Positions 52,229 through 53,171 of a stretch of DNA of 64,000 bases are shown here, piece by piece. The position numbers and the translations under genes were made by a program. Below the pieces are notes generated by a model that saw only the letters and a list, made by a program, of their open reading frames with translations, was not told where the DNA came from and ran no database searches. How positions within the stretch are numbered: the first letter of the stretch is position 1; every line of letters begins with the position of its first letter. The DNA comes from Eubacteriaceae bacterium (lineage in GTDB: Bacteria > Bacillota > Clostridia > Eubacteriales > Anaerofustaceae): contig WRIE01000001.1 of the NCBI GenBank assembly GCA_009782875.1, positions 1 through 64,000 on the forward strand, in the 5' to 3' direction.

Positions 52229-52255
52229 ACGTTTAGATATTTTCTGAATAATATA
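52229..52255 (+). promoter_or_regulatory. Sigma-K-like promoter of the Asn-Cys repeat gene
   Basis: AC at 52229-52230, a 16-base spacer and AATAATATA at 52247-52255 match AC-N16-CATANNNTA except for the first base of the -10 box. The ATG is 31 bases downstream with AGGAG in between, a natural leader length. Confidence 0.45.
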
Positions 52256-52286
52256 TCACGAAACATTGACTTTAGGAGATTGATAT

Positions 52287-53105
52287 ATGAATCATAATAA
52301 CTGCAATTGCAACTGCAACTGCAACTGTAACAGCAACTGCAACTGCAACAGCAACAGCAACCCAAGAAGTAATTGTATATTTCTTTTCGGGGTATCCGAT
52401 AGCGGTTCCAAAAGACCTTGCCACTGCAATAACAACTGCAACTGCAACAACAAAGGGAACTGCACTAGTGGCGTAGGTCCATGCCCGCCACCCGCTTGCT
52501 TTGACCCATGCAGGCCGGTTCCGCTGCCATCCCCTGGATCAGGTGGCTCGACATGCCAACCGAACAACTGCATTCCTTGCAGGACTATACAACAAGTCTA
52601 TCCAAATCCATGTGGAAGATGCGATCCATCTATTACATTGCCAGGACCAGCCCCATGCCCGACAAAACCCTGCAATTGCAGCTGCAACTGCAACAATTGC
52701 AACAATAACTGCAACTGTGGGAATCACCCACAAGGACCAAGGCCGCCAAGGCCACCGGTCATTGTGCCGCCTATCACGCCAGTGCCGCCAATTGGCAACT
52801 TAAACTTTCCAGCAATGCTGACTATCTACAAGTATATGTCAGATGCCTCAACACCGCTGGCTGGAGTGCGTTACGCATTGAAACGCAATGGGGAAATTAT
52901 CAGCATGGACACCTCTGGACCTGACGGCAGCGTCAATTTGGCAGTGTTCGACCCAGGAACATACCTTCTCCAAGAGATTGATCCAGCGCCAGGATTTGCG
53001 ATTGACCCAGTAGCATACCAGATCGATGTAGACGCCCAAGGCGTGATGACCATCGGTGGCCAAGATGCCCAAGGAATAGGATTCGTAAACCACCCGACTA
53101 CCTAA
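52287..53105 (+). CDS. (Asn-Cys)n repeat protein with a SpaA/Cna-B-like domain
   Basis: A 272-residue protein behind AGGAG with no signal peptide. Residues 1-62 are built of alternating Asn and Cys with some Ser (CNCNCNCNCNSNCNCN), interrupted by a short hydrophobic CIFLFGVSDSG. Residues 63-125 are Cys/Pro-rich (CPPPACFDPCRPVPLP, CIPCRTIQ). A second Cys-Asn block follows near 128-146, then a Pro hinge (PRPPRPPVIVPP). From about 174 to the end lies a prealbumin-like SpaA/Cna-B fold: MLTIYKYMSDASTPLAGVRYAL, SGPDGSVNLAVFDPGTYLLQE and a final GIGFVNH. More than 30 cysteines suggest disulfide cross-linking or metal binding. A sigma-K-like promoter and lack of export signal suggest an outer spore-coat component. 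A terminator follows. Confidence 0.7.
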   Translation: MNHNNCNCNCNCNCNSNCNCNSNSNPRSNCIFLFGVSDSGSKRPCHCNNNCNCNNKGNCTSGVGPCPPPACFDPCRPVPLPSPGSGGSTCQPNNCIPCRTIQQVYPNPCGRCDPSITLPGPAPCPTKPCNCSCNCNNCNNNCNCGNHPQGPRPPRPPVIVPPITPVPPIGNLNFPAMLTIYKYMSDASTPLAGVRYALKRNGEIISMDTSGPDGSVNLAVFDPGTYLLQEIDPAPGFAIDPVAYQIDVDAQGVMTIGGQDAQGIGFVNHPTT

Positions 53106-53140
53106 CCGTATCCATATCATGCTATAAATAAGCGAGTTAG

Positions 53141-53171
53141 CAAAAGAAGGCAGGAGCCTTCTTTTGTTTTT
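53141..53171 (+). terminator. Intrinsic terminator of the Asn-Cys repeat gene
   Basis: An 11-bp perfect stem (53141-53151 with 53156-53166) with an AGGA loop runs into TTTTT, 36 bases after the stop. Confidence 0.85.

Follow-up and report, generated by a model that had tools for sequence, protein, structure and literature searches.

A candidate spore-shell protein of a Clostridia genome that joins an Asn-Cys-rich segment to a pilin-type CnaB domain

The gene at 52287..53105 on the forward strand of the window (the whole 64-kb stretch of DNA analysed here) is a real gene for a protein of 272 residues. An AGGAG ribosome-binding site lies 8 nt 5' of its ATG (52274..52278, +), and an intrinsic terminator, consisting of a hairpin with a 13-bp stem and a U-run, follows the stop codon (53139..53168, +; -23.7 kcal/mol, z -6.1). 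An earlier note on this DNA had judged the gene to be real and had credited it with a good ribosome-binding site, a terminator and a promoter. We agree on all points except the last: two sigma-70-type promoter matches occur in the region against 2.4 expected by chance, and this candidate was rejected because the count is at chance level. The neighbouring genes in the window encode a response regulator and kinase, MsrAB, DNA polymerase IV, Ku and an RNase Z-like protein. The last three are not coat genes, and the neighbours add little on function, apart from Ku, which has a link to sporulation in Bacillus subtilis.

The protein contains 29 Cys, 38 Asn and 40 Pro, with every cysteine located in residues 1-148. 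The earlier note had counted more than 30 cysteines and described near-perfect Asn-Cys alternation across the first 62 residues; the count must be lowered to 29, and strict Asn-Cys(-Ser) alternation is limited to residues 4-25 (52296..52361, +), where three Ser occupy Cys positions. Alternation is missing from residues 26-44 and partial at residues 47-55, inside a second, looser Cys/Asn block (residues 45-56; 52419..52454, +). A segment rich in Cys and Pro but free of NC repeats comes next (residues 63-127; 52473..52667, +), holding nine Cys and 18 Pro and having low predicted order. It leads into a third Cys/Asn block with seven Cys (residues 128-148; 52668..52730, +). This is the block that the earlier note had placed near residues 128-146; it is indeed present, with its loose Asn-Cys stretch now set at residues 129-144, and all Asn-Cys blocks share the frame of the gene, as had been claimed. 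A Pro-rich, Cys-free spacer occupies residues 149-176 (52731..52814, +). Given the composition of residues 1-148, 6.5 NC dipeptides would be expected and 17 are found, with (NC)5 as the longest run; none of 20,000 shuffles of these residues reached either value. Cysteine makes up 1.3% of residues in the 11 other open reading frames of the window.

The N-terminal 176 residues have no match in the 390 other genomes of the class, no full-length relative was found in the 67 genomes of the order, and searches of PHROGs, NCBIfam and the Phages collection returned no match to the protein. As far as these sequence comparisons reach, the Asn-Cys region is an orphan. The AF2 model has low pLDDT over residues 1-145, which may reflect missing homologues instead of true disorder. 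A literature search of partial coverage did not find an NCNCNC protein motif. At the DNA level, scans for (NC)4-5 patterns returned mainly hexamer microsatellites and unrelated Asn-Cys proteins. AACTGC arrays of this kind are frequent in other bacteria (Burkholderiales, Gemmatimonadota and others), and on the genome contigs concerned (L016-L134) the Asn-Cys frame is usually not the longest open frame. Since such arrays are common microsatellites elsewhere, the length of the tract may come from repeat slippage. In the scan of the order, CxCxCxCxC matches on two further contigs of the same genome (C62 and C72) were discarded, as they lie within longer open reading frames of other frames.

Asn-Cys and alternating-Cys tracts also occur in several other settings. 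Some phage proteins end in an Asn-Cys tail that is in frame (L138:3096-3692, L148:734-1135, L137, L176, L203 and further IMG/VR loci in the range L135-L213). They form three main sequence families of 37, 9 and 5 members; those tested have no match in Pfam or PHROGs, and in the two annotated loci the gene lies directly 3' of a tail-fibre gene. A radical SAM protein similar to PHROG 1802 is encoded in 44/55 of the Asn-Cys-tail phage loci, compared with 3/24 loci with other tract placement, and the pair looks like a peptide-modification system acting on the tail protein. On two bacterial contigs, L091 and L100, an Asn-Cys tract has a radical SAM gene of this kind nearby; L100 is probably a prophage, because it contains a stretch 95% identical to a phage tail-fibre protein. 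Elsewhere in the genome of the window, a 151-residue protein (L321:1529-1981, -; contig C20, ~10.0-10.5 kb) bears a Gly-rich hydrophobic segment followed by a CDCDCDCDCEDDCDCDEC tract and has no convincing Pfam match. A 324-residue protein beginning MNCNCNNNCYPND and ending CNCNCNCKCK is encoded in two genomes from one genus of the class (L216:1492-2463, -, and L217). It matches nothing in Pfam or NCBIfam and is a coat-like candidate too; Spo0A is present in G127, a genome linked to it. Finally, two membrane proteins (L062:6651-7181 and L105:7339-7980, -), one of them from an uncultured Clostridium, have hydrophobic N-termini followed by Asp-rich and CNCNCN tails, with no convincing family match.

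The C-terminal part of the window protein is a SpaA/CnaB (prealbumin-like) domain (52818..53102, +), as the earlier note had recognised from the letters. Pfam profile PF17802 matches residues 178-256 with an E-value of 2.5e-10 and 40.8 bits, against a gathering cut-off of 23.1. The AF2 model of residues 169-272 has a pLDDT of 92 and is predicted to adopt a CnaB fold, with Bacillus anthracis TIE as its best match (6fwv; Z 12.7, rmsd 2.2 over 96 residues), followed by CnaB2 of Lactiplantibacillus plantarum (8bdw; Z 12.2, rmsd 2.3 over 93) and CnaB2 of Streptococcus pyogenes FbaB (2x5p; Z 11.5, rmsd 2.3 over 92). In alignments, and thus at the level of sequence, Lys182, Glu230 and Asn268 fall in the conserved columns of the isopeptide triad. 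By analogy with the established behaviour of CnaB domains, an isopeptide bond would be expected to form here.

Three further SpaA proteins are encoded in the same genome, all without a signal peptide, an anchor or a single cysteine: 126 residues on contig C45, 158 residues on contig C39, and 369 residues with an Ig-like end on contig C20, the last matching below the Pfam cut-off. No PF17802 protein beyond these four was found in the genome, and the three Cys-free paralogues show that not every member of the set carries cysteine. Across 391 genomes of the class, the best outside match to the domain is a 401-residue protein of G213 (35% identity, E 3e-13), in which a Cys-rich N-terminus, MSTLCNVCYRRQARCPNCHCCKACCQCGNYPCNQ, precedes three SpaA domains. 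WP_320691198.1 of Monoglobus pectinilyticus, annotated as a 'SpaA isopeptide-forming pilin-related protein', is nearly identical to it, with 9/401 codons differing and all 18 Cys kept. The Monoglobus gene (L325:5436-7089) lies directly 3' of feoAB and a gene for a FeoB-associated Cys-rich membrane protein. Within the order, the best match is a G026 protein with ten Cys, comprising MYQNRKHCYNNN, four SpaA domains and a Cna_B domain. The G213/Monoglobus and G026 proteins have a plan similar to that of the window protein, in which a Cys-bearing N-terminus without a signal is followed by SpaA domains. Nearly all other SpaA matches with readable sequence are long and have few or no cysteines, and several have signal peptides or anchor-like ends.

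An in-frame TGA two codons 5' of the ATG (52281..52283, +) excludes a longer start, and hence an N-terminal signal peptide. The window protein has no hydrophobic N-terminus, LPxTG motif or C-terminal membrane segment, and the chain stops directly after the CnaB domain. The same holds for the set of six related proteins to which it belongs: a stop codon lies at most ten codons 5' of the start in 6/6, and a hydrophobic N-terminus, membrane segment or LPxTG motif was found in 0/6.

Spo0A is encoded in all three genomes concerned (that of the window, G213 and G026). Its presence is permissive and not diagnostic, as it also occurs in genomes with ordinary SpaA adhesins; SpaA proteins are in turn found in G033, which lacks Spo0A, so that the domain alone is uninformative on spores. 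The clostridial sigma-K consensus is AC-N16-CATANNNTA (PMC5749712, PMC3789822), and a candidate sigma-K promoter, AC-N16-AATAATATA, agrees with it at 7/8 positions at 52229..52255 (+), the -10 part starting 40 nt 5' of the ATG. Such a score is weak alone, because 8.5% of the window's 200-bp chunks and 13-17% of shuffled sequences score as high. Sites scoring at least 7/8 precede 5/6 related genes and 9/47 control genes (Fisher one-sided p 0.0035), and 3/4 genes when this genome is taken alone (p 0.036), an enrichment that is supportive only, since both the motif and the search window were picked after the gene had been seen. One of the six related genes lacks a sigma-K-like site. Sigma-E sites showed no enrichment in the related gene set, and our literature search yielded no usable statement on spore formation by Monoglobus pectinilyticus.

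The spore envelope is assembled by the mother cell from its own cytoplasm. Among bacterial settings, this is the one in which proteins that lack a signal, carry an extracellular-type domain and contain many cysteines would make sense, and we infer a location in the spore envelope for the window protein. Our favoured and reasonably probable reading is a protein that the mother cell adds to the coat or exosporium of the spore, with disulfide cross-links in its Cys-rich N-terminus and a rigid CnaB head on display. The suggestion of a disulfide-linked coat had already been made in the earlier note, and is now supported indirectly by Spo0A, by the impossibility of a signal peptide, by the common plan of the relatives and by the enrichment of sigma-K-like sites.

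Disulfide-linked spore shells are a recurrent principle, built in different spore formers from mutually unrelated Cys-rich proteins such as CsxA, ExsY/CotY and CdeC (PMC7333573, PMC7677010), and Bacillus spore appendages combine a Cys-rich connector with a stalk and a beta-sandwich tip (PMC11952670). Since both Cys-rich shell proteins and Cys-rich appendage connectors are known, we propose a model of foot, spacer and head. Late in sporulation, the mother cell would produce the protein and incorporate it into the outer protein layers of the spore, either coat or exosporium. The Cys/Asn-rich segment of the protein would act as the foot, forming disulfides with itself and with other Cys-rich shell proteins while the layer forms, and the Pro-rich spacer would hold the CnaB head outward. 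This head is predicted to lock itself through a Lys182-Asn268 isopeptide bond, with Glu230 as the catalyst, and the locked form could act as a knob for display or adhesion that would withstand proteases and heat, taking the place that collagen-like BclA proteins have in other spore formers. Somewhat more tentatively, we suggest that a single chain with two covalent locks, namely a disulfide-linked Asn-Cys-rich segment and an isopeptide-bonded CnaB head, may represent a new class of spore-shell protein that reuses the sortase-pilus toolkit without export. The earlier note knew of no named family with this architecture. That stands for the whole architecture, which is undescribed in the libraries and papers that we searched, but not for its parts: both halves belong to kinds already known, and a pilin-related annotation is attached to the relative in Monoglobus. 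A literature search of partial coverage found no account combining spores, CnaB/prealbumin domains and Cys-rich proteins.

Several other explanations account for part of this evidence. The CXC spacing of the N-terminus, with 29 cysteines in 148 residues, resembles metallothionein, and the protein could be a cytoplasmic metal store that binds Zn, Cu or Fe through thiolates, with the CnaB domain as a stabilising appendage. The lack of an export signal would suit such a role, as would the position of the Monoglobus relative beside feoAB, an iron importer. We nonetheless regard a metal store as unlikely: no metallothionein family in Pfam or NCBIfam matches, Pro-rich spacers (PCPPPACFDPC) hold many of the cysteines, a CnaB head on a Pro spacer has no obvious use in the cytosol, and none of the ten annotated neighbours in the window is a metal-transport gene. 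It is similarly unlikely, perhaps a shade more so, that a neutral AACTGC microsatellite has happened to expand in frame within a small gene for a coat or surface protein, with the CnaB domain as the only functional part. Identical hexamer arrays are present in many bacteria, mostly outside any plausible Cys frame; apart from three Cys-to-Ser changes, the tract here consists almost wholly of AACTGC, and none of the relatives has it. This argument deserves weight for the length of the tract, but it leaves the Cys-rich middle and the Monoglobus N-terminus unexplained. Each of the three Cys/Asn blocks is read in the coding frame, the non-repetitive residues 63-127 are themselves Cys-rich (9/65, against the 1.3% of the 11 other window frames), and the corresponding N-terminal part of the Monoglobus relative is also rich in Cys, with a sequence that is unrelated and free of repeats.

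Pilins and adhesins typically carry SpaA/CnaB domains, and the protein might accordingly be a cell-surface adhesin or pilin that leaves the cell by a non-classical route. We hold this to be improbable, given that a signal peptide is impossible and that sorting motifs and transmembrane segments are missing from the related proteins in 6/6 cases. Least probable is modification of the Asn-Cys tract by a radical SAM enzyme that acts on peptides, a relationship to which genetic linkage points in the phage proteins (44/55 loci with C-terminal Asn-Cys tails, 3/24 others). No homologue of the phage enzyme is encoded in the 64-kb window or in the loci around the relatives, and the tract of the window protein is N-terminal, not C-terminal as in the phages.

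If the protein is indeed a component of the spore shell, Clostridia would have put pilus-type isopeptide domains to use in their spore envelope, apart from sortases and secretion, and one protein would combine disulfide and isopeptide cross-links. The view of spore shells as different proteins built on the same principle would gain a new design, which could offer a source of robust display scaffolds. More generally, annotations as 'SpaA isopeptide-forming pilin-related protein' in spore formers may conceal coat proteins, and a check of start codon and signal peptide would reveal those that are mislabelled in this way.

Comparison with characterised systems places the two halves of the protein in different company. 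The CnaB domain shares its fold, its profile match and its Lys-Glu-Asn triad with the PF17802 domains of FbaB CnaB2, B. anthracis TIE and BcpA; unlike the window protein, with its 29 Cys and no signal peptide or anchor, those proteins are exported and found on the cell surface. Sortase-anchored pilins and MSCRAMMs differ in the same respect, having the N-terminal signal peptide, LPxTG motif and membrane segment that are missing here. WP_320691198.1 resembles the window protein as a signal-less protein with a Cys-rich N-terminus ahead of SpaA sequence, 35% identity in the domain and Spo0A in G213; however, it has three SpaA domains and an Ig-like end, and its N-terminus (MSTLCNVC..CCKACCQC) is unrelated and non-repetitive.

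On the side of spores, CdeC of the Clostridioides difficile exosporium has 37 Cys and CsxA of the C. sporogenes exosporium has 25 (PMC7677010, PMC7333573). Like them, the window protein is a Cys-rich protein of a Clostridia genome, for which we propose disulfide-dependent assembly by analogy, and it resembles the CdeC/CsxA/ExsY class in being rich in cysteine (29/272) and lacking a signal peptide. No sequence relation to CdeC, CsxA or ExsY/CotY was found, as judged from Pfam and NCBIfam profiles, which gave no match outside the SpaA domain. Neither a CnaB head nor Asn-Cys alternation is known in CdeC or CsxA, and the spore location of the window protein is one that we infer. A parallel in overall layout is provided by the L-BclA and AGE80398.1-type tip proteins of Bacillus endospore appendages, which join a Cys-rich N-terminal connector to an extended stalk and a beta-sandwich tip (PMC11952670), although the stalk there is collagen and the head C1q, in place of the Pro-rich spacer and CnaB head described here. 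Overall, by analogy and with no homology to them evident from the profile searches, the window protein may work like CdeC or CsxA and a BclA-type protein combined.
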